Shown one piece after another: positions 41,309 to 56,798 of a DNA stretch of 64,000 nt. The position numbers were made by a program, and so were the translations under genes. The notes beneath the pieces were generated by a model. The model was not told where the DNA came from and did not search any database. It saw only the letters and a program-made list of their open reading frames with translations. Source of the DNA: Actinomycetes bacterium (GTDB taxonomy: Bacteria > Actinomycetota > Acidimicrobiia > Acidimicrobiales > RAAP-2); the NCBI GenBank assembly GCA_021779855.1, contig JAJXZW010000001.1, positions 62,001-126,000 on the forward strand, read 5' to 3'. Numbering within the stretch: position 1 is the stretch's first letter; each line of letters begins with the position of its first letter.

Positions 41309-41556
41309 CCGCCTTCCGACGCGTCGAGAGCTCAAAGAGAGTGTACGGGGCGGAGCGCTAGAGAACGGGAGCGGACCGCCCTCGACCCGGTCGTGGTCGG
41401 GACGTGGCCCGTCCCGCAAGGGCATATAGGGACGGACCACCTCAGCTGAGACTGAGGCCACTTCGACGGAGTCGAAGGGTGGTCCATTCTCTCGCGGCGG
41501 GCGCCCCGAAATACCTGGTTGTGACGACTTTTGGACGACATTGGGGCGGCGTTGGG
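41309..41556. other. intergenic region upstream of the GGDEF-EAL gene
   Basis: No gene is visible in these 248 bases. The region contains the three-stem element at 41434-41485 and, next to it on the GGDEF-EAL side, competing GTCCC/GGGAC complementary segments (41398-41434). Confidence 0.6.
41434..41485 (-). ncRNA. candidate three-way-junction RNA element
   Basis: Three perfect stems nest in 52 bases: P1 41434-41440 with 41479-41485 (7 bp), P2 41441-41445 with 41452-41456 (5 bp) and P3 41461-41467 with 41471-41477 (7 bp). On the minus strand it lies in the leader of the GGDEF-EAL gene and is followed by alternative GTCCC/GGGAC pairings. It does not match the c-di-GMP riboswitch consensus that I know, and could also be the end of the upstream GH16 transcript. 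Confidence 0.45.
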
Positions 41557-42462
41557 CTACGGCCCGGGCACGTACTCGGCCACCCAGTCGACCTCCATCT
41601 GCTCGGGGGCCGTCGGGCACTGGCGGTGCAGGGAGCACATCGCGCGCTGCTCGAAGTCGAGGGTCATGCGCACGCGGGGGATGGCCGCGGGGTCGCTGAC
41701 CCGTCCGAAGACCCTCCCGTCGACCACGAAGAGAATCTCGGAGGGGGTCCAGACCACCCCCCAGGTGTGCCAGGCCGTCATGTCGACGCGCACGCCCGAT
41801 CGCAGGACGGTGTTGTGGGCCCCGAAGTGGACCGAGGTCGTCGTCGAGGTGGCCGAACCGCCGGTCTCGTTGAAGTCGATCTCCGGCGGCCACCGGTTGG
41901 TGAGGGGCCACAGGAGCTGGACCTCGTTGGGGCCGGGGCCGCTCTGACGCGAGCGGACGAAGTACGCGCCGTAGACCCGTGCCCGTCCGCACTGGCAGAT
42001 CCCCCCGGTCACCCAGCGGTCGTGGTAGGCGGGGTTGCGGTAGGTGAGCAGCTCGAGCACCCCGGCGGTGACCCGGGTGTGCGAGACGCCGAAGTGACCG
42101 CCGGGGTCCCCGCCCGGGATGCCGGTGAAGACGTCCCAGCCGGGCGGGATCGAGGCGCCGGAGAAGTCCGTCACGTAGGCGAGCCGGTACCCCGGGAGCG
42201 CTCCGGGCCCGGGGGGCGCCAATGCCGAGGGCTCGCTCGGGTCCGGGGTACCCACCGGGTAGGGGCCGGGGGACGCGGCGCGCGGGGCCTCACGGCGCCG
42301 GGCTCCCGCCGAGGCGGGAGCGGAGGCGCCGAGGGCCGCCAGGGCCAGCGCGAGCACGAGGGCGAGGCGCCCCGTCCAGCGGGTGCCTCGGACCGGCTCG
42401 GCCCGGCGGCCCGCGTCGTGGGCGGGGAGACGAGGGCGAGTCCCGAGGGGGGCGGTCGGCAC
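41557..42462 (-). CDS. secreted GH16-type glycan hydrolase paralogue A
   Basis: A 301-residue exported protein. An N-terminal signal segment (GRLALVLALALAALGASAPASA) leads to the motif YPVGTPDPSEPSALAPPG, then a GH16-like beta-sandwich with the catalytic signature PEIDFNE. CQCG and the later C-x6-C in AMCSLHRQCP are shared with the paralogues and probably form disulfides. GH16 enzymes cleave beta-glucans or galactans by retention. The GTG at 42462 lies seven bases after the stop of paralogue B with GAGGA as ribosome binding site, so both are in one operon; longer in-frame starts overlap paralogue B. Confidence 0.85.
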   Translation of the reverse strand: MPTAPLGTRPRLPAHDAGRRAEPVRGTRWTGRLALVLALALAALGASAPASAGARRREAPRAASPGPYPVGTPDPSEPSALAPPGPGALPGYRLAYVTDFSGASIPPGWDVFTGIPGGDPGGHFGVSHTRVTAGVLELLTYRNPAYHDRWVTGGICQCGRARVYGAYFVRSRQSGPGPNEVQLLWPLTNRWPPEIDFNETGGSATSTTTSVHFGAHNTVLRSGVRVDMTAWHTWGVVWTPSEILFVVDGRVFGRVSDPAAIPRVRMTLDFEQRAMCSLHRQCPTAPEQMEVDWVAEYVPGP

Positions 42463-42469
42463 GGGGTCC

Positions 42470-43603
42470 TCAGCCGACGGTGAGGGAGACCACGCGCGCG
42501 CTGAGGCCGCGTGCGGCGCTGGAGGCCGGTTCGGGCAGGGCGGCGACGAGGACCGAGCGGTCCCCGAGGGCGGCGAGCCGCGCGAGGAGGTAGGCCCGGG
42601 CGCTCTGCGCGCGCCGGCGCCCCAGGGTGGACCCTCCCGGCCCGGGGTCGCCGGAGCCGACCACCGAGACAACGGGGTCGCGGTGGCGGGCGATGGCTAG
42701 CGCCGCGGCGTCGAGCGCCCGACGCACCGGTGCGTCGATGGCGGCCGAGCCGGCCGCGAACGGGCCGATCGTCGCCACCCGGGGCGTGTAGGCGTAGTAG
42801 GCGACCCAGTCGACGAGCGTCGACTGGTCACTGGTGGGACAGGCGTAGCCCTGGGAGCACCAGGTCTGCTGCTGGATGTGCAGGGTCAGCGGCACGTGGG
42901 GGACCTCGCCCGGGGCGTTCACGACGCCCCAGGGACGGCCGTCGAGGGTGTAGACGACCGAGGTCGGGGTCCAGACGACTCCCCAGGTGTGCCACTGGGT
43001 CAGGTCGACGGCGCGGCGCACCTGGGTCTGGAGGTCCTGGCTGGCCCAGTGCAGCGTCGCGAAGCTGAAGGTGGTCGAGCCGTTGGTCTCGTTGAAGTCG
43101 ATCTCGGGTGGCCAGCCCGAGGTGGGCCAGAGGAGCTCGACCACGGTCGGGCCGGGCCCGGTCTCGCGCGAGCGGACGAAGAAGGCGCCGTAGGTGTGCG
43201 GGTCGGCGCAGTCGCAGGCCCCGCCGGTCACCCACTGGTCGGCGTAGGCGGGGTCGCGCCAGGCGTTGAGCGAGAGGACTCCGCCACCGACGGTGACGTG
43301 GGTCGGCGACCACTGCGAGCCGGGGTCCCCCGCGGCCGGGTCGGCGAAGGTGCCCCAGTTGCCGGGGAGGGAGGTGCCGGTGAAGTCGGTGACCGAGCGC
43401 TGGGTGAACCCCGGCAGGGCGCTCGGCCCCGGCGGGGCCATCCCCGAGGGCTCGGCGGCGTCTGCCACGCCGACCGGGAAGGGGGCGCCGACGACCATGG
43501 GGCGGGGCCTCGCCGGGGACGACGCGCCGGCCGGTGCGGCGAGAGCCAGGGGGGCGAGGAGGGCCAGGGCCAGGGCGCAGAGGCTGAGACGACGGCGCTC
43601 CAC
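42470..43603 (-). CDS. secreted GH16-type protein B with C-terminal OmpA-like domain
   Basis: A 377-residue protein with a signal peptide (LSLCALALALLAPLALAAPAGA), a GH16 domain (PFPVGVADAAEPSGMAPPG, catalytic PEIDFNE, WCSQGYACP disulfide pair) and about 110 further residues. The extension (TIGPFAAGSAAIDAPVRRAL, then VVGSGDPGP and LGRRRAQSARAYL) looks like an OmpA/MotB-type peptidoglycan-binding fold. This would anchor the enzyme to the cell wall. None of the other paralogues here has it. Confidence 0.82.
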   Translation of the reverse strand: MERRRLSLCALALALLAPLALAAPAGASSPARPRPMVVGAPFPVGVADAAEPSGMAPPGPSALPGFTQRSVTDFTGTSLPGNWGTFADPAAGDPGSQWSPTHVTVGGGVLSLNAWRDPAYADQWVTGGACDCADPHTYGAFFVRSRETGPGPTVVELLWPTSGWPPEIDFNETNGSTTFSFATLHWASQDLQTQVRRAVDLTQWHTWGVVWTPTSVVYTLDGRPWGVVNAPGEVPHVPLTLHIQQQTWCSQGYACPTSDQSTLVDWVAYYAYTPRVATIGPFAAGSAAIDAPVRRALDAAALAIARHRDPVVSVVGSGDPGPGGSTLGRRRAQSARAYLLARLAALGDRSVLVAALPEPASSAARGLSARVVSLTVG

Positions 43604-43620
43604 CCGAGCGAGCCTAAAAC

Positions 43621-44454
43621 CTATGGGGAGTACAGATCCTTAGGGAACGGTCGGAACTCCACGCCGAGCGCCGCTACCAGGTCCGATCCCGGCACGCTCG
43701 GGGCTGGGCGCACCAGCCCGAGGAGCGAGTCGGGCCGCACGGGCAGGGGCAGTCGAACGGCGTGGGCGAGGGCGAGGGCTCCGCCCAGCGCCGGCCAGGG
43801 CACCGGCACGCGCACCGCGCGTCGCCCCGGCGGGGCCAGCGCGGACATCAGCTCGTCGAAGGGCACGGCGACGGGGTGCGCGAGTCCGTAGATGCCCGGG
43901 CGCGGCGCGGGGCCGGTCGCCAGCGCGCGGAGTGCGTCCACGACGTCGTCCACGTGGGCCGTGTACTGCCGGGCCCCGGGCACCGACACCCGAAGGGGCC
44001 ACCGCGCGAGCCGCCGGAGTGTCCCGACCATCCCCCCGACGCCCGGTCCGTAGACGAGGCCCGGCCTCGCGACGAGGCCTCCAGCCTCGAGGACCGTGCG
44101 CTCGACCGCGAGCTTGGTCAGGCCGTAGACCTGCCGGGTCCCGTGGTGGGCCGACATCGACGAGACGAAGACGAGGCGACCGACGCCGGCCTCGGTGGCC
44201 GCGCCGATCAGTCCGCGCGAGCCCTCGACGTTGACGGCCCAGGCCGCCTCGGCGTCGGTCGTGCGCAGGTCCCACGCGGCGTGGACGAGGGTGTCGACCC
44301 CGGAGAGGGACGCCGGGTCGTGGGGGCCGGCGAGGGAGAACGGGTCCGGCCCGTCGCGGCGCAGCTCGACGACTCGGGTGCCCTCCGCGCGCAGCCGGGT
44401 GGCCAGCGCGCCACCGAGGAAGCCCCCGGCGCCGGTGATCGCGACCGTCGTCAC
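43621..44454 (-). CDS. NAD-dependent epimerase/dehydratase (extended SDR)
   Basis: A 277-residue extended SDR. AITGAGGFLGGALATRL is the NAD motif, VSSMSAHHG and YGLTKLAVE provide the Ser and YxxxK catalytic residues. It resembles nucleoside-diphosphate-sugar epimerases/dehydratases. It overlaps the GMC oxidoreductase as GTGA and precedes the GH16 pair, placing it in a surface-glycan context. Substrate unknown. Confidence 0.82.
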   Translation of the reverse strand: MTTVAITGAGGFLGGALATRLRAEGTRVVELRRDGPDPFSLAGPHDPASLSGVDTLVHAAWDLRTTDAEAAWAVNVEGSRGLIGAATEAGVGRLVFVSSMSAHHGTRQVYGLTKLAVERTVLEAGGLVARPGLVYGPGVGGMVGTLRRLARWPLRVSVPGARQYTAHVDDVVDALRALATGPAPRPGIYGLAHPVAVPFDELMSALAPPGRRAVRVPVPWPALGGALALAHAVRLPLPVRPDSLLGLVRPAPSVPGSDLVAALGVEFRPFPKDLYSP

Positions 44455-46034
44455 GCCGGGGCGAGCGCAGTGGCGATGCGGTGCGCGTTGGCCATGATCG
44501 TAAGGGTGAAGGTCGTCGCCGACACGGTGGGGAAGACGGCGGCGTCGATCAGGTGGACGTGCCGCCAGGGCGCCACGCGCCCGAGCGGGTCGCTGTCGAG
44601 TCCGGGACGGGGGTCGGCGCGGTGGGGGAAGCTGCCGCCGATGTGGTAGCTCTTGGTCACCGGCGAGAGCGACACCATCGGCGTTATCGGCGTGACGCCG
44701 AGGTGGCGGGCGGCGCGCACGAGCCGGCCCGAGACCTCCCGCAGGTGGGCCCGCGCGACGTCCTCGCGCCCGGGCCGGGCGACGACGGCGACGCGCGGCG
44801 GCTCGTCCTCACGGGTGCCCGGGGTGACGGTCACGCTGAAGCCGGGCGACCACCACGAGGGGAGGTAGCCGAGTCCCACCGTGAGTCGCCGGAGCACGGC
44901 GCGGCCCACGGGGGCGAAGGCACCGTGACGCAGGGGGGCCGGCAGCGCCGTGTCCAGGGCGCGGCTGTAGGGGTAGCCGTGGATCTGGACGAGATCGTGG
45001 CCCGACTCGTCGAAGGGGAGCACCAGGTTGAACTGGTTCAACGTGAAGGAGTGCTCCTCGCGCGCCTCGTGAGTCGCGCGCAGCGACGCGAAGGGCACGG
45101 CGAACTGGGCCGACTCGGCGAACTCGATCGGCCGGCCCCACTGGCCGAGCGAGCGCGCCACGAGTGCGGTGGACCCGACCGCCCCGCAGGCCACCAGCAC
45201 CGCGTCGGCCTCGACGACCCGCCGCTCGCCGGTCGCGAGATCCCTCGTCACGACGAAGGGCGCCCCGTCGCTCTCGCCGAGCTCGAGGGCGAGCTGTCCC
45301 GGGGTGTAGTCGATCGCGCCTCGGGCGCGCAGCTCGTCGAAGGTGTGCGAGGCCGAGTAGACGAGCCCGTAGGGGCACCCGGTCATGCAGAGCCCGCACG
45401 ACACGCACGCCGACGCCCGCAGGGCGAGGCGGGCTCGTCCGGCGATCACGCCGGATCGGCGCACGGCCACTCGGCGGGACTGGTAGCGCTCGAGGACGCG
45501 GCGGGCGTTGCCGGCGAGTGGGGGGAGGGGGTCGGGATGGCCCAGGAGGGGGAAGTACTCGGCCAGGTCGTCGGACTCGCCGGCGTAGGGGATGGCGCCC
45601 AGGACGGCGCGGTAGTGCGGCTCGAGGGTGTCGCGACCGAAGGGCCATTCCGAGAAGCTGGCGGCGGAGTAGGGCGTCATCTGGGCGCCCCAGGCGTTGG
45701 AGAACCCGCCGTAGGCGCCCGAGACGACGTGAACGTCGTCGCTCATCCCGGTTCGCTGGCCGAAGTCACGGAAGGGGAAGTCCGAGCCGAGGGTGCGCTT
45801 CTCCGGGAGCCGGAGCCCCGGTCGGGGGACGGCCACGGCAGCCACGCGCTCCCGGTCGCGGGGGTCCCAGGTGCTCGGCGGGCCCGCCGCGAGTCGGCGC
45901 CTCGCCTGCTCCAGGTCGTCCTCGAGCCGACCTCCGACGTCGAGGACGCGCACCGTCACGTCGGGCCGGTCGACCAGGGCCAGGGCCGCGCCCGCCGCGG
46001 CCGGGCCGGCGCCGACGATCACGACCTCCATCAT
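44451..46034 (-). CDS. GMC-type oxidoreductase with ferredoxin-like Cys cluster
   Basis: A 527-residue flavoprotein. The FAD motif VVIVGAGPAAAGAALAL is at the start, and the C-terminal GMC domain ends with SYHIGGSFPHR and HLIDAAVFPTVSATTFTLTI in order, containing the conserved His and the last FAD contact. Between them, ACVSCGLCMTGCPYGL gives C-x2-C-x2-C-x3-C-P, a classical [4Fe-4S] ligand set not found in ordinary choline or glucose oxidases. Oxidation of a sugar or lipid alcohol with electrons passed to an iron-sulfur centre is likely. Tandem ATGs at 46034 and 46031; the first overlaps the upstream glycosyltransferase stop. Confidence 0.83.
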   Translation of the reverse strand: MMEVVIVGAGPAAAGAALALVDRPDVTVRVLDVGGRLEDDLEQARRRLAAGPPSTWDPRDRERVAAVAVPRPGLRLPEKRTLGSDFPFRDFGQRTGMSDDVHVVSGAYGGFSNAWGAQMTPYSAASFSEWPFGRDTLEPHYRAVLGAIPYAGESDDLAEYFPLLGHPDPLPPLAGNARRVLERYQSRRVAVRRSGVIAGRARLALRASACVSCGLCMTGCPYGLVYSASHTFDELRARGAIDYTPGQLALELGESDGAPFVVTRDLATGERRVVEADAVLVACGAVGSTALVARSLGQWGRPIEFAESAQFAVPFASLRATHEAREEHSFTLNQFNLVLPFDESGHDLVQIHGYPYSRALDTALPAPLRHGAFAPVGRAVLRRLTVGLGYLPSWWSPGFSVTVTPGTREDEPPRVAVVARPGREDVARAHLREVSGRLVRAARHLGVTPITPMVSLSPVTKSYHIGGSFPHRADPRPGLDSDPLGRVAPWRHVHLIDAAVFPTVSATTFTLTIMANAHRIATALAPA

Positions 46035-46966
46035 CGACCCAGTCGGCCGACGAGGGTCCCGGCGGCCCCGAGGGCCAGCGCGCAGACGAGGGCCCCGTAT
46101 CGCACCGGGGCGTAGAGGTCGCCGCGCGCCAGCGCGCGCGCCTCCTCGAGGAGGCCGCGGGTGAGCCCGCGCACCCCGAAGGCGACCTCGGCGTTGAGGT
46201 TCGACGCGCCCCCCATCGTCCGGAAGGCCTGCGCCTTGCCCCGGTTGACGTAGAAGCATCGTCGCCAGAAGTAGTCCCAGGTCAGTCGGGACGCCGGCAC
46301 GTAGTGGACCACCACGGCGGCGGGGTCGAAGACGACGCTGCGCCGGCCGTGGGCGTGGGCGGCCCGGTGGCTCAGGTCCATGTCGTCGTGGTTGTCGGAG
46401 TGGAAGCCGCCCCACGAGAGCAGGACGGCGCGTCGGATCGACATGTTGGCGCCGATGAGGTGGCGGGCCGGAGCCCTGGTGGTGGGCAGGCCCCGGTAGG
46501 CGCAGCCGAACACCCAGTTGCACTCGTAGGGTATCCATCGGGGTCGGTCCACCTCGTAGCGCGGGATCGGCGCGCCGCCGACGGCGACCACACCGGGGTC
46601 GGCGTAGTCCGTGACGAGGCGCTCGAGCCAGTCGGGGGCCGCCGCCGCGTCGTCGTCGAGGAAGGCCAGCACGTCGCCCGAGGCGAGCTCGGCGGCCGTC
46701 GTGCGCGCTCCCCCGAGGTGCGAGTCGAAGCGGTTCTCGACGACGTGGACCTCGACGGCCCGATCGGCGAGGAGTTCGGGCACCTCGCGGACGGCGCGCT
46801 CGAAGAGCTCGCGATTGTGATCGACGACGAGGAATAGCTCGACGGGCTGGTGGGTCTGCGCGCCGACCGAGCGTACGGCATCACGGATCTGGTCCCAGCG
46901 GTCCATCGTGTAGGCGCACACGACGACGCTCACGCTGAGCCCGGGGGGTGCTGAGGGCGCGGTCAC
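46031..46966 (-). CDS. family 2 glycosyltransferase
   Basis: A 311-residue GT-A enzyme. LSVSVVVCAYTMDRWDQI is the N-terminal nucleotide-binding strand, FLDDDAAAAPDWLERL holds the DxD motif, and SDNHDDMDLSHRAAHAHGR the acceptor-side ED-like motif. One hydrophobic C-terminal helix (YGALVCALALGAAGTLVG) may attach it to the membrane. The GTG at 46966 is chosen because a longer start would overlap the divergent GH16 gene. It is first in the operon with the GMC protein, the SDR and GH16 A/B. Confidence 0.85.
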   Translation of the reverse strand: MTAPSAPPGLSVSVVVCAYTMDRWDQIRDAVRSVGAQTHQPVELFLVVDHNRELFERAVREVPELLADRAVEVHVVENRFDSHLGGARTTAAELASGDVLAFLDDDAAAAPDWLERLVTDYADPGVVAVGGAPIPRYEVDRPRWIPYECNWVFGCAYRGLPTTRAPARHLIGANMSIRRAVLLSWGGFHSDNHDDMDLSHRAAHAHGRRSVVFDPAAVVVHYVPASRLTWDYFWRRCFYVNRGKAQAFRTMGGASNLNAEVAFGVRGLTRGLLEEARALARGDLYAPVRYGALVCALALGAAGTLVGRLGR

Positions 46967-47023
46967 GGATCCATCCTGCCGCGACGCGCGTCCGACCGAC
47001 CGGGCGTCGCTCGGCGTCCCCGG

Positions 47024-47029
47024 TAGACT
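47024..47029 (+). promoter_or_regulatory. -10-like element of a probable leaderless GH16 transcript
   Basis: TAGACT, identical to the -10 of the rpsF operon, ends eight bases before the ATG of GH16 paralogue C and there is no ribosome binding site between. The transcript would start at or next to the ATG. Confidence 0.38.
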
Positions 47030-47037
47030 GCGCGACG

Positions 47038-47928
47038 ATGTCGGGCGCACCGGACACCGGCCCGACGAGCGCGGCTCACCCCCGTCACCGCCCGTCGAGC
47101 CATCTCATCGGCGCCCTCACCGTCGTCGTCGTCGCGGCCGTCGTCGCGGCCGTCGTCTACTTCGTCTACGCCTACGAGCACAAGACCGTGATCCGCGCCA
47201 TAGCCCCGGGCGTGCGCACGCCCTATCCCGTCGGGGTCATCGACACGAAGGCCCTCTCGGGCGTGGACCCGCCGGGTGCCCACGCCCTCGCGGGCTACCG
47301 ACAGGTCTACGTGACCGACTTCCCCGGCCGGTCGCTGCCTACGGGCTGGGCGGTCTTCACCGGCCCCCAGCCCGGCTCGCCGGGGGGTCACTTCGGGGCC
47401 GCCCACGTGGTCGTGAAGGACGGGCGGCTCCTCCTCAGCACCTGGCGGGACCCCCAGTTCAAGGACGCCTGGGTGACCGGGGGGCTCTGCCAGTGCGGGC
47501 GGCCGATGACCTACGGCGCCTTCTTCGTCCGGAGTCGGGTCACGGCGGCCGGCCCGAACGAGGTCGAACTGCTCTGGCCGGCGTCGAACCACTGGCCACC
47601 CGAGATCGACTTCAACGAGACGGGCGGACGCACCAACGGCACGTCCTCGACGGTCCACTGGGGTCCCATCAACCAGATCGACCAGCGCTTCGTGACGATC
47701 GACATGACCAAGTGGCACACCTGGGGTGTGGTCTGGACGCGGTCGTCGATCGTCTACACGGTGGACGGGCAGGTCTGGGGGACGATCGCCTCGCCCAGCG
47801 AGGTCGCCTCGGTACCCATGACCCTCGACTTCGAGCAGCGGACCCTGTGCGCCTTCCACCGCCAGTGCCCGACGCACCCGGTGACCATGGAGGTGGCCTG
47901 GGTCGCTGAGTACGCCCGGAATCACTAG
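47038..47928 (+). CDS. membrane-anchored GH16-type protein C
   Basis: A 296-residue paralogue of the GH16 proteins. A cytoplasmic N-terminus of about 25 residues is followed by one transmembrane helix (IGALTVVVVAAVVAAVVYFV) acting as a signal anchor without a cleavage site. The family opening PYPVGVIDTKALSGVDPPG, LCQCG, the catalytic PEIDFNE and LCAFHRQCP are conserved. It is divergent from the glycosyltransferase operon and probably translated from a leaderless mRNA. The stop shares CTAG with the next gene on the other strand. Confidence 0.84.
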   Translation: MSGAPDTGPTSAAHPRHRPSSHLIGALTVVVVAAVVAAVVYFVYAYEHKTVIRAIAPGVRTPYPVGVIDTKALSGVDPPGAHALAGYRQVYVTDFPGRSLPTGWAVFTGPQPGSPGGHFGAAHVVVKDGRLLLSTWRDPQFKDAWVTGGLCQCGRPMTYGAFFVRSRVTAAGPNEVELLWPASNHWPPEIDFNETGGRTNGTSSTVHWGPINQIDQRFVTIDMTKWHTWGVVWTRSSIVYTVDGQVWGTIASPSEVASVPMTLDFEQRTLCAFHRQCPTHPVTMEVAWVAEYARNH

Positions 47929-49865
47929 GACTTCTCCAGGACGCTCGCCGTGGACCACTCGGCCACGAGGCGGAACCCGTGCGCGAGCAGCGCCGCACGG
48001 ACGTGGCTCATCCAATCTCGGGGATAGCTGTCGACCTCGACCCCGTAGTTCGATTGGGACCGGCCGAGGATCACCCAGGTGAGGTTGTTGTGCTCCAGGT
48101 TCTTGACGATGCGCGACACCGGGGTGGGCGACGTCGCGGATCCGGCGACGTACTCGTTGATCGTGCCCACGGCCCGCTGGCCGATCGGCATGAAGTAGTT
48201 GGCCAGGCCGATCCTCTGCCCCGGCTGGACGTGGTCGTAGACGTAGTTCACGGCCGCCACCTCCCCGGGGGTGAACGACTCGTAGGCGTCGTTCCCGCCA
48301 CGTACGAGCGTCGTCACCATCGCGACGGCGCCCACGACGACCGCCACGGCGACCCGGGAGCTCGTCGGCCCCCATCGCGCGAGTGCCTCACGCACGGCGC
48401 GCGCCGTGCGAGCCTCGCGCGGGTCGCGCGCGCCGCCGAGCCCCAGGCGTCCCGGCAAGGGTCGAGCGAGCGAGCCGACCGTGGCGCGGAGCGAGTCGGC
48501 GACGCTAGGGATCTCCCCGGCCCGCCCGGGCACGAGGGCCGAGGCCGCGAGGAGCCCTACGAAGGGCAGTCCGAACAGCACGACGCGCATCAGGCCCTCG
48601 CCGCCGTAGGCCTGGGCGGCGAGCAGGGCGAAGGGCGCGACGACCAGCGCCTCGATGGTTCGCGAATCGGCCCGCCGGCGCACGGCGCCGACGGCGGCCA
48701 ACAGGTAGACGACGGCCGTCAGCCCGATGCGGGACTCGACGACGGCGAGGTGGGTCGCGCGACCGGTGACCCGGCTCGTCACGTTCGAGCTCAGCTTCGA
48801 GCCGAACTGGCCCACCGATCCGAAGATCGCCCCGAGGTGGCCGACCCAGTAGTTGCTGGCACCGAGGCTCAGCCAACCGATGGCGAGCGCGACGAGCAGG
48901 ACCCACATCTCGGGCCGACCGAATCGGCGCGTCACGACCAGCGCCGGCAGGGCGACGGCCAAGGCGTAGGGCGTGAGCTGGTGGCTCATGGAGGAGGCGA
49001 GGAAGATGAGACCCATGAGAACGAGGAGCGTCGTGGTCACGAGCGGGCCCTGGGTCGGGGTGGCGTCGCGGCCGAGGAGGCGGTCCCCCGTCAACGCCCG
49101 TCGGGTGCGCGTCAGGCGTTGGCGCCACGATCCCTCCACGAAGCCCGAGGGCCCGAGGGGGACCGGGCGCCAGAGGTAGAGGGCGAGGGCCACCACGACG
49201 AGGAAGAGGAGGTAGTTGAGGGCTTGGGGAGAGAAGTAGTCCTGGAGGATCCAGTTGGTGCAGTAGTAGAGGGCGATGCCCAGCCAGCCCGCGCGCTCGC
49301 CGACGCCGCTGTAGCGCGCGATGACGAGGAGGGGGGCGAGATAGGCGAGCTCGATCGCGAGAGGGAACCAGTGGGCGAAGGCGATCGCCGAGTGGACGCC
49401 GGCGAACGACACGAGGGCGGCGGTCATGGAGAACCCCCCCGGCCACGAGAACCGGGCGTCGTAGCCCTCCAGGGGCTGGCCGTGGGCCAGGATGTACTGG
49501 ATGAAGCCGGCGTGGATCCACGAGTCGGTGAGGACCGCCGTGGGCTCGACCGCCGACGCCGTGCCGTAGATGTAGATCGCGAGCACGACCAGCAGGCCGA
49601 GCAGCGCCCAGGCGCGTAGGCGGCGGGCGCTGAGCTCGACGGTGAAGGCCGCGACGACGAGGAGGAGCCCGACGAAGTAGGTCCATCCGAGGACCGAGAT
49701 CAGGCCGTAGCCGTTCATGGCGTTCGAGTCGGCGCGGGTCACCGTTATCAGCCACAGGGCGAGTCCGAGGAGTCCGAGTGCGGGTCCCACCGCAGAGCGC
49801 GTGGCGATCCGGCGTCGCGTGGCGAGCGCCGCGGGGGCCGCCGAGAACGTGGTCGCCAGGGCCAT
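47925..49865 (-). CDS. large polytopic membrane protein, GT-C-like
   Basis: A 646-residue integral membrane protein with a dozen or more hydrophobic segments and a C-terminal soluble part (about 110 residues, from RGGNDAYESFTPGEV). The first extracytoplasmic region contains TDSWIHAGFIQYIL and YDARFSWPGGFSM, a position where GT-C glycosyltransferases carry their acidic catalytic residue. I do not recognise a named family. The ATG at 49865 follows the small upstream gene by two bases. Role in glycan assembly is inferred from context only. Confidence 0.7.
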   Translation of the reverse strand: MALATTFSAAPAALATRRRIATRSAVGPALGLLGLALWLITVTRADSNAMNGYGLISVLGWTYFVGLLLVVAAFTVELSARRLRAWALLGLLVVLAIYIYGTASAVEPTAVLTDSWIHAGFIQYILAHGQPLEGYDARFSWPGGFSMTAALVSFAGVHSAIAFAHWFPLAIELAYLAPLLVIARYSGVGERAGWLGIALYYCTNWILQDYFSPQALNYLLFLVVVALALYLWRPVPLGPSGFVEGSWRQRLTRTRRALTGDRLLGRDATPTQGPLVTTTLLVLMGLIFLASSMSHQLTPYALAVALPALVVTRRFGRPEMWVLLVALAIGWLSLGASNYWVGHLGAIFGSVGQFGSKLSSNVTSRVTGRATHLAVVESRIGLTAVVYLLAAVGAVRRRADSRTIEALVVAPFALLAAQAYGGEGLMRVVLFGLPFVGLLAASALVPGRAGEIPSVADSLRATVGSLARPLPGRLGLGGARDPREARTARAVREALARWGPTSSRVAVAVVVGAVAMVTTLVRGGNDAYESFTPGEVAAVNYVYDHVQPGQRIGLANYFMPIGQRAVGTINEYVAGSATSPTPVSRIVKNLEHNNLTWVILGRSQSNYGVEVDSYPRDWMSHVRAALLAHGFRLVAEWSTASVLEKS

Positions 49866-49867
49866 GG

Positions 49868-50086
49868 TCAGCCGATGATCCTGAACCGGACGATGACCAT
49901 GGCGCCGTAGAGGAGGACCGAGGCGACGATCGAGCCGTCGAGGAGGCGGGCCACCAGTCGTGACAGGGCGATCTGCCACACCCCGCAGGCGACGCGGGCG
50001 CCGAGCAGGACGACGACGGCGAGCAGCAGCACCAGGGTCACCGGGGCGCTGACCGCCGCCGCGTCGGCCACGAGGAGGGGTGTCAC
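49868..50086 (-). CDS. small two-helix membrane protein
   Basis: A 72-residue protein almost entirely hydrophobic: one helix (VTLVLLLAVVVLLGARVACG), a short basic turn and a second helix (IVASVLLYGAMVIVRF). The GTG overlaps the stop of the 382-residue gene as GTGA and the stop is two bases from the next ATG, so it is part of a coupled operon. Function unknown. Confidence 0.62.
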   Translation of the reverse strand: MTPLLVADAAAVSAPVTLVLLLAVVVLLGARVACGVWQIALSRLVARLLDGSIVASVLLYGAMVIVRFRIIG

Positions 50087-51231
50087 GGCCGGGCGCCTCG
50101 GGTCGGGAGGACGAGGGCCTGTCCGAGGAGCGACGGCAGGCACAGGACCCCCAGGACGATCTCGAAGCCGGCCAGGTGCCACAGGTGGGCGGTCATGAGG
50201 ATCTGGGCGCCGAGCATGATCACGGTCAGGCTCATGGCGAGGGAGAGGCCTACCTCGAGGGCGACGCTGCGCAGGCGGAGCCAGCCCACGATGGCCCACC
50301 CGGGCGCCGCGAGTCCGAAGACCAGTCCTACGGCGAAGCGCAGTGCGTCGTGCAGCGCGAGGAGCGTGAGCGCGAGCGCCGCGAGATCGAAGGCGACGAG
50401 CGCGAGGGAGGCGGCGCGCCGCCCCCGGACGCGTCGGTCGGCGACGGGGGTCGCGGGGACGGCGACGGGGAGCGGGCGCTCGTCCTGCGGTCGACGGACG
50501 GGCGTCGTCGCCTCGAGGACCTCGAGGGCGGTGAGCAGCGTCGCGGGGGGCTCCTCGAGGGCGGGGGGCCGGCCGACGAAGTCGTCGGGGACCTCGAACT
50601 CCTCGAGCAGCGACGCGCGAGCGGGCTCGGGGGGCTCCACCCCCTCGCCCCGCTCCTCGACGAGGAAGTCGACGAGCTCGACCCAGGCATCCTCCGGCGC
50701 CGTGACCTCGACGTCGCCCCCGTCGGGGGCCAGGGTCTCGCTCCGGTCGGCGGGGGCAACCTCGTCGAGACGGGTCCGTTCGTCGAGGTCCCCGGTCCGG
50801 GCGGGCCACGTCTCGGCGTCGTGCGGGGCGATCTCCTCGTGAAGGAGGTCGGCCGCGACGATGCCCACGACGTCCTCGACGACGACCTCGCTCGGGCTGA
50901 GGTCGCCGATGGTGCCGGCCACCGCCGCGGCGCAGCGCTCGACGACCAGGCGGCGATCGGCGTCGGGGATGACCGGGGGGTCGCAGTGCAGGCCCGGGCG
51001 ACTGCTCAGGCGCGCCGCCATGAAGGGGGAGATCGGGCGGGCGTCGAGACGGAAGACCTGGGGTCCTCCGGGGCCCTCGAGGACGATGACGGCGTCGCGT
51101 AGGCGGTGGCGCAGGGCCAGGCGGGCGAGCGCCTCGTAGACGTAGGCGATGCCGGCCCGGCTGGCGGCGAGCTCGTCGAGCTCGTCGGCGAAGGTCGTCG
51201 CCGGGGGAACGGGGGTGCGGTCGGAGCTCAT
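50083..51231 (-). CDS. hypothetical protein with C-terminal membrane domain
   Basis: A 382-residue protein of unknown function. The first 120 residues form a possible globular domain (FADELDELAASRAGIAYVYE, then FRLDARPISPFMAARL), residues 120-260 are an acidic Glu/Asp/Pro-rich linker, and the last 120 contain about four transmembrane helices (GLVFGLAAPGWAIVGWLRLR), faintly like DUF1616. It starts on an ATGA overlap with a 26-codon ORF and ends on a GTGA overlap with the 72-residue gene. Confidence 0.65.
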   Translation of the reverse strand: MSSDRTPVPPATTFADELDELAASRAGIAYVYEALARLALRHRLRDAVIVLEGPGGPQVFRLDARPISPFMAARLSSRPGLHCDPPVIPDADRRLVVERCAAAVAGTIGDLSPSEVVVEDVVGIVAADLLHEEIAPHDAETWPARTGDLDERTRLDEVAPADRSETLAPDGGDVEVTAPEDAWVELVDFLVEERGEGVEPPEPARASLLEEFEVPDDFVGRPPALEEPPATLLTALEVLEATTPVRRPQDERPLPVAVPATPVADRRVRGRRAASLALVAFDLAALALTLLALHDALRFAVGLVFGLAAPGWAIVGWLRLRSVALEVGLSLAMSLTVIMLGAQILMTAHLWHLAGFEIVLGVLCLPSLLGQALVLPTRGARP

Positions 51232-51308
51232 GGGTGCGGGTGTGCTCGGTCTCGGGCGGTCCCCACGGGCACGACCCGACGCTCGGAGGCGCCCGCCGGG
51301 GTGTCCAT
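51228..51308 (-). CDS. 26-codon ORF coupled to the 382-residue membrane protein
   Basis: ATG with GAGGGG eight bases upstream opens a 26-residue ORF (MDTPAGASERR at the start, AHPHP at the end) whose TGA overlaps the next ATG as ATGA. The product looks unstructured. It may be a small translated leader that couples ribosomes into the downstream gene rather than a functional protein. Confidence 0.4.
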   Translation of the reverse strand: MDTPAGASERRVVPVGTARDRAHPHP

Positions 51309-51457
51309 GCTACCCCTCGGGATCGAGATACCTGATGGCGGGGTAGATGCCCAGAGGGGGGCGACAGGGCTCGTCCCCGGCGCGCGCACCGCGGGAGCCG
51401 GATCCGGCGGGTCGATGCGCTGGGGTAGGGCGCGCCTCGCCGACCCGAGGCCCTCGA

Positions 51458-52594
51458 TCATCGTCGCAAGAAGGCCGGCAGGGCCGTTCGGGCGCTCGTC
51501 GCCGGGGCCGCCCGGAGGAGTCGTAGGGCCAGGCCGTCCCACGCCTCGGGGGCGGGGAAGCGCAGGGTGGAGAGGCGGAGCGCGTGGTTGAAGGCGACGT
51601 GGACCGAGGCCGGACGGCCCAGGTCCGCGACGAGGCCGCCGACGTAGCCGCGGCTGATCGACGGGACTCCGGTGGAGATCATCGCGACGGTGGCGATCCC
51701 GTGCTCCATCGCGGTGTCGAGGGTCCGTGAGGTGTCCGAGGGCTCGGCCACGCCCGCGGCCGAGGATGAGGCGACGACGTCGTCGAGGTCGCGCGAGGAC
51801 ATCTCCTCGTCGATCAGCACCACGCGCTCGGCGTGGAAGCTGGCGGCGACCATGTCGTCGACGACGGAGTCGCGGTGGCGCATGACGACGCGCAGCCCGT
51901 AGTCGTCGACCCACGCCTCGGGAACGGCGTCGAAGGCCGCGAGCACCGTGGCCAGGGCGGCCACGTTGTCGCGCGGCAAGAAGGCGGTGATGCCACGATC
52001 GGGACCGGTGTCGGAGCGGCCGGCGAGGGTGAGGGCGTGGTCGACCTCGATGTGGGGTCCACGGGCCCCGAAGTAGGAGCGCAACGTGGTCGCGTCCTCG
52101 GGGCGGCCGACCATGATGCGATCGGCGAGACCGAAGTAGGCGCAGGTCGCGACGAGCTCGGCCGAGCGCAGACCCGGGAGGCCCGCGCAGAGGACGGTCG
52201 TGGGCACCTGCGCCCGGTGGGCCGCGTGGAGCGCCTCGTCGATCCACGCGCTGTCCAGGCCGGGCCAGGCGTAGGCGATGAGCGCGTCGGCGTCCTCGCT
52301 GATCCACGCGTGGAGGGCGCGCGCCCGCTCCCGGCGCCCGTGGGGGGACCGCAGCGTCACGACGTGGTCCTGGGAGTCGTCGCGCTGGACGGAGGCGAGA
52401 GACGGGGCGCGGTGCAGCCCGGCGATCTCCTTCTCGGCGACGTCGACCTCGACGCGGGTGACGTCAACTCGACGCGCGAGCGAGCGGACGACCTCGGTCA
52501 CGACGATCCCAGGGATGGTCGTCGCGAGGCCGGGCCCGGCGACGATCACGTGCGGGCGGGTCCTGGTGAGCCGGTTCGCGAGGTCAGCGCACAT
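51458..52594 (-). CDS. putative GT-B-type glycosyltransferase
   Basis: A 378-residue protein. The N-terminal half starts with HVIVAGPGLATTIPGIVVTEVV, a nucleotide-sugar-transferase-like first strand and helix; the middle has LCAGLPGLRSAELVAT and a donor-domain-like strand GITAFLPRDNVAAL; the C-terminal part has the alternation VVLIDEEMSSRDLDDVVASS, and GIATVAMISTGVPSI in the place of the GT-B acidic motif. The family is not certain. It overlaps the preceding glycosyltransferase gene by 11 bases, so it belongs to the same operon. Confidence 0.5.
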   Translation of the reverse strand: MCADLANRLTRTRPHVIVAGPGLATTIPGIVVTEVVRSLARRVDVTRVEVDVAEKEIAGLHRAPSLASVQRDDSQDHVVTLRSPHGRRERARALHAWISEDADALIAYAWPGLDSAWIDEALHAAHRAQVPTTVLCAGLPGLRSAELVATCAYFGLADRIMVGRPEDATTLRSYFGARGPHIEVDHALTLAGRSDTGPDRGITAFLPRDNVAALATVLAAFDAVPEAWVDDYGLRVVMRHRDSVVDDMVAASFHAERVVLIDEEMSSRDLDDVVASSSAAGVAEPSDTSRTLDTAMEHGIATVAMISTGVPSISRGYVGGLVADLGRPASVHVAFNHALRLSTLRFPAPEAWDGLALRLLRAAPATSARTALPAFLRR

Positions 52595-53372
52595 CGGGCC
52601 TCCGATACGTCCGGAATCGCTCCCGCACGATCGTGCGGAAGATCCGCATGCCGTCGCGCAGCGCGTGCAGCCGGCTCGTGCCGTGGATGCGACGGGTCTC
52701 GAAGCACGGCACCTCTGCGATCGCCATCCGGGAGCGGCGGGCCCGGATGCCTACCAGGGTCTCGACCTCGAAGCCGTCGGAGTCGATGTTCAGCCACGCG
52801 AGCCGGTCCGCACGCACCGCGAAGTAGCCGTAGGTGGCGTCGGTGTAACGGGCACCGAAGAGGACGCGGAGGAGGAAGCAGATACCGGCGTCGCCGAAGC
52901 GTCGGAAGGGGGTGATGTCGGCCGAGCCGGCGCCTTCGGCGAACCGGCTTCCCTTGGCGTAGTCGGCCCCGGCGGCGATCGCGTCGCGGAACGCGCCGAT
53001 CATGGCGCCGTCCATCGATCCGTCGGCGTCGATCGCGACGAGGACGTCGCCCTTGGCGGCCTCGAGCCCGGCCCGCAGCGCCGCCCCCTTGCCGGGCCGC
53101 GACTCGTGCACGACCCGTACGGCGGGCCAGAGGGTCCGGGCGATCCGCTCGGTGTCGTCCTGGGAACGACCGTCGACCAGGATGACCTCGTCCACCCAGC
53201 CCGGAATCGTGTTGAGGACGTAGGGCAGGTTGCCGGCCTCGTCGAGGGTCGGGATGACGACGGACACGGTGAGTGGCACGCCGTCGGCGTGGCGCGGGGG
53301 CCTAGGCGAGGTGTCGTCGGCCAAGGACCTTGGGTTGACGATCACTTCTCCGCCCTCTTCTGGCCCTTGCAT
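52584..53372 (-). CDS. family 2 glycosyltransferase, dolichol-phosphate-mannose-synthase-like
   Basis: A 262-residue GT2 enzyme. VSVVIPTLDEAGNLPYVL opens the catalytic domain, EVILVDGRSQDDT is the nucleotide-binding acidic motif, and AIDADGSMDGAMIG holds the DxD. RFGDAGICFLLRVLFG and DATYGYFAVRAD are typical of polyprenyl-phosphate glycosyltransferases. No C-terminal membrane helix is present. The ATG at 53372 is chosen because it overlaps the TGA of a well-initiated 40-codon ORF (TGATG); a GTG at 53345 preceded by GGGCGGAGAA is an alternative. Confidence 0.87.
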   Translation of the reverse strand: MQGPEEGGEVIVNPRSLADDTSPRPPRHADGVPLTVSVVIPTLDEAGNLPYVLNTIPGWVDEVILVDGRSQDDTERIARTLWPAVRVVHESRPGKGAALRAGLEAAKGDVLVAIDADGSMDGAMIGAFRDAIAAGADYAKGSRFAEGAGSADITPFRRFGDAGICFLLRVLFGARYTDATYGYFAVRADRLAWLNIDSDGFEVETLVGIRARRSRMAIAEVPCFETRRIHGTSRLHALRDGMRIFRTIVRERFRTYRRPDVR

Positions 53373-53494
53373 CACAAAGCCTCGCAGAGGCTAGGGACGA
53401 AGTCAACGGCGTGTGTCGTCACGAACGGCGATGACATCGATGTCATTCGCGTGTTCTCGTGCGTCGTGCGCTGCGCTTGCTGTGTTTCGGTCAT
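53372..53494 (-). CDS. 40-residue small protein upstream of a glycosyltransferase
   Basis: An ATG preceded by AGGGAGGG (six-base spacer) opens a 40-residue Thr/Ser-rich peptide (MTETQQAQRTTHENTR, then MTSMSSPFVTTHAV, ending DFVPSLCEAL). The TGA is fused to the ATG of the next gene. The strong ribosome binding site and the stop/start coupling support translation. I do not recognise it; it could be a regulatory leader peptide or a small precursor peptide. Confidence 0.55.
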   Translation of the reverse strand: MTETQQAQRTTHENTRMTSMSSPFVTTHAVDFVPSLCEAL

Positions 53495-53565
53495 CGACAC
53501 CCTCCCTTGCTCGGGTTCGAAGAGGTGACTTCGGTCATCGGGACTTACGCCCCGTCCACGCGTTC

Positions 53566-54735
53566 TCAGGCGTTGGGGGAGTACTCGGCCACCCAGTCGA
53601 TCTGCATCGACTGCGGCGCGCTCGGACAGGCCCAGCCCGAGCTGCACCAGGTCTGCTGCTGGAGGTCGAGCGTCATCGGGATGCTCGGGATGGTGGAAGG
53701 GTCGGTGACACGGCCCCACACGCGCCCGTCGACGGTGTACGTGATCGAGGTGGGCGTCCAGATGACCCCCCAGGTGTGCCACTGGGTCAGGTCGATCGAC
53801 ACGTGGGACTGGACCTGGCTCCGTGCGCCACCCGAGAAGGCCCAGAGGTCGGTGGCGGTCGAGGTCGCCGAGGAGCCGTTGGACTCGTTGAAGTCGATCT
53901 CGGGGGGCCAGGTGTTGGTGGCCGGCCACAGGAGGGCGACCTCCGTGGGGCCGGCGCCGGTGACCCGGCTGCGGACGAAGAACGCGCCGTAGGTGTGCGG
54001 GAGACCGCACTGGCACAGGCCACCCGTCACCCACTCGTTGTTGTAGGCGGGGTCCTGGTACGTGTTGAGCGAGAGCAGGCCGTTCGAGACGCTCACGTGC
54101 GCCGAGCCGAACTGGCCGCCGGGGTCACCGCCCGGCGTGCCGCTGTAGGCGTACCAGCCCGAGGGCAGCGACGAGCCGGTGAAGTCCGAGACGTAGGACT
54201 GCGTGTAGCCGGCGAGCGCGCTGGCGCTCGGCGGGGCGTACCCCGAGGGCTCACTGGCGTCGAGCACGCCCACGGGGATCGCACTCGCGGCGGTCGTCGT
54301 GGTAGTGGGCGCGGCCGTCGTGGTCGTGGTCGTGGTCGGCGGTGCGGAGGTCGTCGTCGGTCCGTCGGCCGCCGGGTGCGACACCGGGCTCCCGTGGGCG
54401 GAGGTGGTCGTGGACGGGGCGGAGGGCGCGTGGGCTCTCGTCGACGCCGCAGCCGTCGTCGGCCCGCCGGAGAGGTCGGACGGGGGGGTGCCCGGGGGCA
54501 TCGCCGTGGTGACGGGCCGGTGGTCGCGGAGGGACGCGACGGTGACCCGGGGACTGACCGACTCGACCGAGTGGGCGGTTGTCGGTCCGCCGACCACGAG
54601 GGACGAGGGTGAGGCCGACGCGTCGATGTTGATCATGGCCACCAAGACGGCGCTCGACGCCACGAGCGTCGCCAGTTTGGTCACCCGGTGGGAGGTCCGG
54701 CCTCGGAGGAACTTCGCGTACGTGCCCTTGCTCAT
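53566..54735 (-). CDS. secreted GH16-type protein D with Thr-rich linker
   Basis: A 389-residue paralogue. The N-terminus has a signal segment (LATLVASSAVLVAMINIDASA) after a basic start, followed by about 100 residues of Pro/Ser/Thr-rich sequence containing TTTTTTTAAPTTTTTAA, a likely wall-spanning and possibly glycosylated linker. The GH16 domain begins IPVGVLDASEPSGYAPPSA and carries LCQCG, the catalytic PEIDFNE and WCSSGWACP. On the coding strand a possible -35 TTGGGG and -10 TTATGT, 17 bases apart, lie just upstream. It heads the operon with the 40-residue ORF and two glycosyltransferases. Confidence 0.86.
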   Translation of the reverse strand: MSKGTYAKFLRGRTSHRVTKLATLVASSAVLVAMINIDASASPSSLVVGGPTTAHSVESVSPRVTVASLRDHRPVTTAMPPGTPPSDLSGGPTTAAASTRAHAPSAPSTTTSAHGSPVSHPAADGPTTTSAPPTTTTTTTAAPTTTTTAASAIPVGVLDASEPSGYAPPSASALAGYTQSYVSDFTGSSLPSGWYAYSGTPGGDPGGQFGSAHVSVSNGLLSLNTYQDPAYNNEWVTGGLCQCGLPHTYGAFFVRSRVTGAGPTEVALLWPATNTWPPEIDFNESNGSSATSTATDLWAFSGGARSQVQSHVSIDLTQWHTWGVIWTPTSITYTVDGRVWGRVTDPSTIPSIPMTLDLQQQTWCSSGWACPSAPQSMQIDWVAEYSPNA

Positions 54736-54872
54736 GCCGACACGTTCTCGGGCTCACATAAAGCACCCGCCTACCGATCCCCAACGGACGGCCAACTCTG
54801 GTGGGTCCCGCCGTCACCAGGGCGGAGGCGAAAAAAACTCTGGGACAACGGTGGGTCGAGGAGCTCCGGTTC
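54736..54872. other. galE/GH16-D intergenic region with an A/T tract
   Basis: No gene. A run of seven A on the plus strand (T on the coding strand of both flanking genes) lies at 54831-54837, and downstream of it a six-bp inverted repeat (CTGGTG/CACCAG). It could combine the galE terminator and the GH16-D promoter, but no convincing stem directly precedes the T run. Confidence 0.35.
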
Positions 54873-55829
54873 TCAGGCGACGTTCCGGCGGGCCTCGAAG
54901 GCGTCGGCGACGATGCCCTCGAGTGACGCGTGCTCGATCGTCCATCCGAGCATCGCGCGAGCGCGGTCGTTCGACGCGACGGCCTCGGCCGGATCCCCGG
55001 AGCGACGGGGCGCGACCCGCACGGCGAAGTCGACCCCGGTGACGGCGCGCACCGCGTCGATGACCTCGCGGTTGGAGTGGCCCACCCCGGACCCCAGGTT
55101 GAGGACGAGCTCTCGGTGGTCTGCCAGCGCCGCGATGGCCAACGAGTGCGCTCGGGCGAGGTCGGACACGTGGACGTAGTCACGCACGCACGTGCCGTCG
55201 TGGGTGGGGTAGTCGTCACCGTAGAGGTCCAGCCCGTCGCGTCGCCCCAGCGCGGCGTCGAGGGCCAGGGGGATCAGGTGGATTTCGGGTGCGTGGCGCT
55301 CCGGGTGGGCGGGCGTGGCCCCGGCGGCGTTGAAGTACCGTAACGACGCGGCGCGCAGCCGGCCCCGGTCGCACAGCCAGTGCAAGGCCCGCTCGATGGC
55401 GAGCTTCGACTCGCCGTAGGGACTCTCGGGGCTGACGGGCTGGTCCTCGTCGATGGGCATGGCCACCTGGTTCCCGTAGACGGCGGCGGAGGACGAGAAG
55501 ACCACCCGGGGGCAGCCGCCCTCGACGAGGGCCCGCAGGAGCTGGAGGGTCTGGGCGACGTTGACGTCGAAGAACACCTCGGGGCGCTCCATCGAGATCG
55601 CCGGCTCGATGCGACCGGCGAAGTGGACGCAGGCGTCGAAGGGCCCGAGGCCCTCGACGAGTGTCGCGTCGCCGCAGCGGCCCTCCACGAAGTGCGCGCG
55701 TGGGGGGACGTTGGCGCGCGCCCCCGAGCTGAGGTCGTCGAGGGCGACGACGTCGTGCCCCTCGTCGAGGAGGAGTTCGGCCGTTGTCGAGCCGATGAAC
55801 CCTGCGGCCCCGGTGACCAGGACCCTCAC
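54873..55829 (-). CDS. galE: UDP-glucose 4-epimerase
   Basis: A 318-residue extended SDR. VLVTGAAGFIGSTTAELLL is the NAD motif, SSSAAVYG supplies the catalytic serine, YGESKLAIE the Tyr and Lys, and LRYFNAAGA and CVRDYVHVSDLARAH are GalE signatures. It interconverts UDP-glucose and UDP-galactose, giving galactose donors for the neighbouring glycosyltransferases. It is read in the same direction as the GH16-D operon. Confidence 0.93.
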   Translation of the reverse strand: MRVLVTGAAGFIGSTTAELLLDEGHDVVALDDLSSGARANVPPRAHFVEGRCGDATLVEGLGPFDACVHFAGRIEPAISMERPEVFFDVNVAQTLQLLRALVEGGCPRVVFSSSAAVYGNQVAMPIDEDQPVSPESPYGESKLAIERALHWLCDRGRLRAASLRYFNAAGATPAHPERHAPEIHLIPLALDAALGRRDGLDLYGDDYPTHDGTCVRDYVHVSDLARAHSLAIAALADHRELVLNLGSGVGHSNREVIDAVRAVTGVDFAVRVAPRRSGDPAEAVASNDRARAMLGWTIEHASLEGIVADAFEARRNVA

Positions 55830-55996
55830 GAGCCCGCCCCCTTGCGTGGGTGGTGACCCGTCACGCGAGGCACCCTAACACCGCGGGATGGGCGCGTTCT
55901 CGGCCCCGGCGGGGCGTGTGGGGACGGTGGGGACCCGTTGGGGGACGACTGGTAGCGTCACCAACGTCGTTGAGGCGCCGACGGGATAGGAGACGC

Positions 55997-56794: not shown

Positions 56795-56798
56795 GGTC

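Follow-up and report, generated by a model that had tools for sequence, protein, structure and literature searches.

Four old GH16 paralogues with different delivery features in a putative surface-glycan locus of an acidimicrobial bacterium

Four paralogous genes, here called A to D, encode proteins of glycoside hydrolase family 16 (GH16) and lie within about 13 kilobases (kb) of a 64,000-nucleotide stretch of DNA (the window: positions 62,001 to 126,000 of contig JAJXZW010000001.1, assembly GCA_021779855.1) from a bacterium of the order Acidimicrobiales, family RAAP-2 of the Genome Taxonomy Database (GTDB). Their products have an intact GH16 catalytic motif, belong to old lines and differ in the sequence features that bear on delivery, and the genes are found together with those for family 2 glycosyltransferases (GT2) and a GT-C-like membrane protein, both in the window and in related genomes. 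On balance we favour the view that A to D are retaining, endo-acting enzymes which process a surface or extracellular glycan of their own locus. Hydrolases inside polysaccharide loci are already known, although their role is often unclear (PMC9894940; this and the other sources are cited from those parts that were available). Here the hydrolases form an old paralogue set, each line with its own delivery features, tied to a locus of the GT2/GT-C-like kind.

A preliminary description of this DNA had proposed four GH16-type paralogues, and open frames are found where it placed them: A at 41557–42462, B at 42470–43603 and D at 53566–54735 on the minus strand, and C at 47038–47928 on the plus strand. 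All four pass the Pfam gathering cut-off of 22 bits for PF00722 (A 32.6, B 33.6, C 38.3 and D 49.4 bits) and they are the only PF00722 matches in their genome (2.06 Mb in 51 contigs, 97% complete); C, A and B are respectively 51, 48 and 54% identical to D. Matches to the NCBIfam models EglC, ExoK and BglS are all far under cut-off. The motifs said to be common to the four are indeed present in each, namely CQCG (A, C and D) or CDCA (B), PEIDFNE (as PPEIDFNE) and a later cysteine pair (C-x5-CP), except that the supposed PVG-x-D is really PVGxxD, with two residues between G and D. The start of A is most likely the GTG at 42462, 7 bases past the stop of B, and not the start of the longest open reading frame.

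The AlphaFold2 model of B, the one paralogue modelled, has a predicted local distance difference test score (pLDDT) of 92.1 and shows the GH16 beta-jelly-roll fold. The best Protein Data Bank (PDB) matches of the GH16 domain are laminarinases (ZgLamC, 4crq, E 4.0e-17), and the model compares closely with Pyrococcus LamA (2vy0; Z 25.0, root-mean-square deviation [rmsd] 2.4, 220 residues aligned) and with 4crq itself (Z 24.9, rmsd 2.1, 207 aligned). A family sequence-profile alignment sets EIDFNE against EIDIMS of the 4crq active-site strand, in which S is the engineered E142S. The check by structure prediction that had been proposed at the outset has come out in favour of GH16 as to fold. In all four paralogues this motif has the EXDXXE form of the GH16 catalytic motif (defined in PMC6827312), and its E, D and E columns are unvaried in all 117 aligned members of the family. 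The second cysteine pair is also unvaried in the 117, and the two CxC cysteines are both present in 111 and both absent in the other six; such joint retention or loss beside an unvarying pair suggests two separate disulphides. With the catalytic motif invariant, dead enzymes or lectins are not favoured, and chance resemblance to GH16 is ruled out by Pfam, fold and gene order.

The preliminary description called the four one expanded family. The trees that it asked for uphold a single paralogous GH16 family but not a local expansion. Scanning contigs with D as query gave 63 loci, nearly all in assemblies assigned to Acidimicrobiaceae, Acidimicrobiales or Actinomycetes/Actinobacteria. Within the GTDB family, at least 32 of 150 genomes (the window's own included, as in the two counts that follow) match a four-row profile at 1e-10 or better and at least 30 do so at 1e-58 or better, the two weak ones being G079 and G042; a matching family genome has from one to seven GH16 matches, counted among its best 15 candidates and with broken genes counted repeatedly. 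A 70-row profile is matched at 1e-15 by at least 9 of 298 genomes of the order (best seven candidates each) and by at least 5 of 396 genomes of the phylum (best five candidates each). Pooling gave 132 distinct frames, or 125 once seven with a core inside another were removed, and the motif pattern is present in 120; among the other five, L093 has E-D-E with a different preceding residue, and the matched stretches of the remaining four end before the motif. In a tree of 117 rows, these being the 120 motif-bearing frames minus three that were too short, the four paralogues are spread over separate clades, and every one of these clades also contains rows from other genomes. A careful tree of 36 rows chosen around the four lines has as its main split, two distant rows aside, A with C (99/92) against B with D (97/96), and forcing the window's four into one group lowers the log-likelihood by 315.6 units (approximately unbiased test, P 2.5e-65). 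Recent local duplication is rejected by this test, and the trees indicate that the four lines are old and separate, each with relatives in other genomes. GH16 copies with one internal stop occur in relatives (G147:C3:78849–79712, G032:C13:4252–5148 and G126:C23:6880–7539), hinting at a turnover of extra copies.

The differences in delivery that had been described among the paralogues are present in the sequence, although two of them need rewording. Paralogue A is, as stated, a plain secreted protein by its features, with a signal peptide, a GH16 domain and no further domain found; its hydrophobic run is of 16 residues, and the median for its nine-row clade is also 16 (14 to 18). Paralogue C has an unbroken hydrophobic run of 24 residues ahead of its GH16 domain (median 23, range 18 to 29, in its 11-row clade), and since its run and those of its clade are longer than that of A, the uncleaved N-terminal helix first suggested for it is likely to be an anchor. 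Some rows of other classes have runs that overlap the range of C, up to 23 in long-tail rows and up to 28 in rows with a C-terminal extension. A per-genome rule separating signal peptides from anchors put the window's C on the signal-peptide side; the rule was dropped and the length of the hydrophobic run used instead.

Paralogue B, with a signal peptide and a GH16 domain, was said to be fused to an OmpA-like wall-binding domain. Its C-terminal tail is OmpA-like but degenerate, reaching 12.7 bits against a PF00691 gathering cut-off of 27.2, a cut-off that no place in the window's own genome reaches; among the 24 tree rows with a C-terminal extension, B included, eight homologues were tested and seven pass. 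The Asp and Arg of this domain we take to be the peptidoglycan-binding pair. The Arg is kept in all 24 tails and the Asp in 13, B among them, and the Asp is absent from the two nearest relatives of B (L114_143 and L115_15). Paralogue D has the long Thr/Pro stretch attributed to it, some 110 residues in length and enriched in Thr, Pro, Ser and Ala (88 to 176 residues across 19 long-tail members), ahead of its GH16 domain, but the stretch follows a signal peptide with a 15-residue hydrophobic run and an Ala-Ser-Ala end. If the signal is cut after Ala-Ser-Ala, the stretch would be a free N-terminal tail and no linker to an anchor, and D may be untethered. Conservation of the D signal peptide as a mark of special sorting was considered and rejected, the ratio of N-terminal to core identity (0.48 against 0.32, 0.38 and 0.39) being only modestly higher than in the other classes. 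Under thresholds that we set ourselves, the delivery labels are clustered on the 117-row tree, with 13 changes against a shuffled mean of 44.7. Seven changes are required for the long-tail class and five for the C-extension class, of which at least three and at least one, respectively, are forced by well-supported branches; delivery is kept along the lines, therefore, but imperfectly.

The locus runs in the order GalE, D, GT2b, a 378-residue protein, U382, MEM684, C, GT2a, a GMC-like flavoprotein, a short-chain dehydrogenase/reductase (SDR), B and A, all on the minus strand except C. The UDP-glucose 4-epimerase GalE (54873–55829; TIGR01179 324.7 bits, cut-off 262.3) was correctly named as a neighbour, though it lies just beyond the range given for the set. 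The SDR belongs to the NAD-dependent epimerase/dehydratase family (43621–44454; PF01370 53.9 bits), as described. The supposed GMC oxidoreductase (44451–46034), a GMC-like flavoprotein with a CxxCxxxxxC-type cysteine motif, has Pfam matches below their cut-offs. The interleaved glycosyltransferases hold for GT2a (46031–46969) and GT2b (52584–53342), both with PF00535 and with start codons that are uncertain, and by fold for MEM684 (47925–49868). For the 378-residue protein (51458–52594) no support as a glycosyltransferase was found, neither Pfam nor the PDB sequences giving a credible match. U382 (50083–51231) matches no model of Pfam or NCBIfam; it has hydrophobic segments towards its C-terminus, and places related to it are found. 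A small open reading frame of 72 residues (49868–50086, minus strand) has similar genes in 14 of the 63 compared sources. As in an operon, adjoining genes, among them the GT2 pairs and the GMC-like and SDR genes, either share a few bases or stand end to end, with C on the opposite strand; no sigma-70-type promoter or intrinsic terminator was found in 41000–56200. The locus genes that were scanned gave no Pfam match of the Wzx, Wzy or Wzz kinds.

The model of MEM684 has a pLDDT of only 74.5. By VIA-align it is closest to the catalytic subunit of yeast oligosaccharyltransferase (Z 20.0, rmsd 6.3, 439 aligned), followed by AftA (Z 15.8) and ArnT (Z 15.0); AftA is also the best Foldseek match (E 4.3e-06), and no PDB relative is found by sequence at E up to 1. 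In predicted fold MEM684 resembles the GT-C glycosyltransferases. Of 22 sequences, 20 share a Glu and 19 an Asp in the probable first outer loop. WWDxG is the motif of oligosaccharyltransferases and is absent from all 22, and MEM684 was rejected as an enzyme of that kind (STT3, AglB or PglB). The closest solved relative of GT2b is a dolichol-phosphate mannose synthase (5mlz, E 2.8e-15). Taken with the GT-C-like fold of MEM684, this leads us to read the locus as one for assembly of a glycan from lipid-linked sugars, finished outside the membrane, with GalE supplying UDP-sugar.

Conservation of the locus supports the earlier suggestion that the paralogues sit within what looks like a surface-glycan locus. 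The gene order is the same in the nearest genome, G104 (locus L114, on the same contig as L036), and in L022 and L001 as far as their stretches reach. GalE, D and GT2b lie together on one strand in 16 of 19 long-tail members, the other three differing on one or both sides. Comparison of the 54 GH16 loci that span 8 kb or more with eight partner types, each serving as a query, finds at least one partner in 33, at least two in 32 and at least four in 25, although several come from a shared contig or genome and GalE, SDR and GT2 are common families. As a control within the window, seven of the eight partner queries match their own gene alone, and the GT2a query does likewise. MEM684 is matched at E 3.9e-79 or better in 24 of the 150 family genomes, all inside the 30 with clear GH16 matches (Fisher 1.5e-22, a figure that ignores relatedness, that follows a threshold chosen after the list had been seen, and that counts the window's own genome in both sets). 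Two genomes were taken from another family of the order (G744 and G680), and each has two GH16 genes beside MEM684-like, GT2a-like and GT2b-like genes (28–50% identity); six further matching genomes of the order or phylum (G424, G577, G613, G705, G745 and G768) stood outside this wider comparison.

Our working hypothesis is that the locus makes such a glycan and that this glycan is the substrate of A to D; the places and steps that we infer would be as follows. GalE would provide UDP-sugar, GT2b would load polyprenyl phosphate with a sugar, and MEM684, together with GT2a and others, would use the lipid-linked sugar to build a chain on the outer side of the membrane. The GH16 enzymes would then cut or rearrange it at different places, with C acting at the membrane, B perhaps near the peptidoglycan by way of its OmpA-like tail, and A, and probably D with its flexible Thr/Pro tail, released into the matrix.

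A number of observations, beyond the limits on the Fisher figure, weigh against this hypothesis. None of the eight partners is seen, in the DNA at hand, in 21 of the 54 GH16 loci compared, and stretches from G337, G241, G079 and G187 show GH16 without these partners. Six of the 30 clear-GH16 genomes are without a strong MEM684 match. At 1e-10 MEM684 is matched in 33 genomes; the nine weaker ones include G107 and G127, which have GH16, and G079, whose GH16 match is weak, while the other six (G010, G024, G038, G053, G059 and G085) have a weaker MEM684 relative with no GH16 match. The flippase-like gene of 26 of the 63 compared sources is not in this locus, a relative lying 21 kb past the end of the window. 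Genes of GH1 and GH3 also occur in the window's own genome, with two matching frames and three matches respectively, and would make the scavenging of outside glucans possible. The stretches from those four further genomes led us to lower our confidence in own-glycan processing slightly and to raise that in a catabolic role.

The first alternative is that the four are mainly transglycosylases, joining or cross-linking strands of the locus glycan or tying it to the wall in the manner of fungal Crh or plant XET; a transglycosylase role had been surmised in the preliminary description. Under the GH16 double-displacement mechanism either a sugar or water can be the acceptor, and in five subfamilies the subfamily sequence fails to separate transfer from hydrolysis (PMC6827312); membrane-held, possibly wall-binding and free copies would moreover suit joining at several depths. 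No feature examined favours transfer, however, and the nearest solved folds are those of hydrolases, and we think this alternative unlikely. We consider it similarly improbable that A to D are ordinary secreted beta-glucanases which digest the glucans of other organisms for food, the glycan genes around them being incidental. Laminarinases are the nearest folds, the GH1 and GH3 genes could complete such digestion and partners are missing from the 21 loci mentioned; yet an incidental neighbourhood fits poorly with the GalE-D-GT2b order, with the joint occurrence of GH16 and MEM684 and with a core that is found again in another family, and no sugar-uptake transporter family was matched among the locus genes scanned.

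More doubtful is a stronger form of the transfer idea, in which the four would be an old set of GH16 transglycosylases, placed at membrane, wall and matrix depth, that join and re-tailor a glycan built by a GT-C enzyme from lipid-linked sugars, as a bacterial counterpart of the Crh and XET sets. Very unlikely, in our estimation, is a locus for archaeal-type protein glycosylation, of S-layer-like proteins for instance, whose glycans the GH16 enzymes would edit or release. The closest NCBIfam models to GT2b and GT2a are those of haloarchaeal AglJ and AglG, and the highest Z scores of MEM684 are to oligosaccharyltransferase subunits, but the AglJ and AglG matches (111.4 and 167.3 bits) fall far short of the cut-offs of 325 and 440 bits, and MEM684 lacks WWDxG, as noted above. 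To our knowledge, GH16 enzymes are not usual in archaeal-type protein glycosylation loci, and this too we count against that explanation.

Other genes near the locus may be noted. A PAS-GGDEF-EAL protein of the cyclic di-GMP (c-di-GMP) type (39110–41308, minus strand) flanks it on one side and an EAL-domain protein (55997–56794, plus strand) on the other; these two and a kinase-like protein border it over 39110–41308 and 55997–59279. Similar borders are seen in L114 and several other loci, and similar c-di-GMP genes lie near GalE in several relatives; these flanking genes would fit a matrix or capsule. A further GT-C-type protein (60134–61723, GT87 above cut-off) is encoded a few kb from the locus. 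A secreted esterase resembling polyhydroxybutyrate depolymerases, below cut-off (37783–38706), has counterparts near GH16 in the distant loci L052 and L101 (on contigs of equal length, probably one) and L057. On the same contig, 19 kb past the end of the window (C51:145289–149401; L161:19289–20000 and L162:161–3401), is a second glycan block with genes for a GT2, a PIG-L-type deacetylase, a flippase-like membrane protein and a GNAT protein. The flippase-like protein is 50% identical to L020:17461–18762, and its family is that found in the 26 compared sources. It could not be placed in a named transporter family, having no Pfam match and no PDB sequence match, and 'flippase-like' is a reading of its sequence.

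It is tempting to speculate on the value of such a set. The GH16 enzymes may trim a surface coat, some nearer to the cell and some farther from it, in a group whose genomes in our comparison are mainly metagenome assemblies. By comparing relatives one could then ask whether selection on enzymes of this kind acts on where they work and not on what they are specific for. Should the set instead join chains, bacteria would have in it an analogue of the wall remodelling known from eukaryotes.

In literature on GH16, OmpA, Acidimicrobi- and exopolysaccharides (EPS), of which coverage was partial and mostly non-subscription, we recognized no account of this locus, but there are several systems with which it may be compared. 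The GH16 laminarinases ZgLamC (4crq) and Pyrococcus LamA (2vy0) share its fold and active-site strand, at only 16–17% identity in the structural alignments. The exo cluster encodes ExoK, which belongs to GH16. With ExsH it forms a pair of secreted glycanases that cut the producer's own exopolysaccharide, the succinoglycan of Sinorhizobium, two per polymer (PMC4916376). The likeness lies in there being more than one glycanase for the cell's own polymer, and the NCBIfam ExoK model touches D and A, far below its cut-off of 350 bits (34.5 and 24 bits); here, unlike there, we find four paralogues, different delivery and GT2/GT-C-like neighbours, in Actinomycetota. PrmQ, from the promonan EPS cluster of Sphingomonas, is a GH16 protein with a predicted signal sequence whose deletion gives rugose colonies and which its authors predict to cut the polymer during secretion (PMC11340318). 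It resembles the present set in its site inside a glycan cluster, but it is a single copy in a Wzx/Wzy-type cluster, and the available part of that account describes no differently delivered paralogue set. GimA and GimB of Actinoplanes missouriensis are paralogous secreted hydrolases that cut the organism's own matrix polysaccharide; gimB adjoins the imp synthesis cluster, and a species that carries such genes usually has two to four of them (PMC12691653, PMC13390465). They likewise form a paralogue set of own-polysaccharide hydrolases, but they belong to GH5, carry a galactose-binding-like domain and are produced for the release of spores. By analogy with PrmQ, ExoK/ExsH and GimA/GimB, the GH16 set described here would trim the glycan of its own locus.

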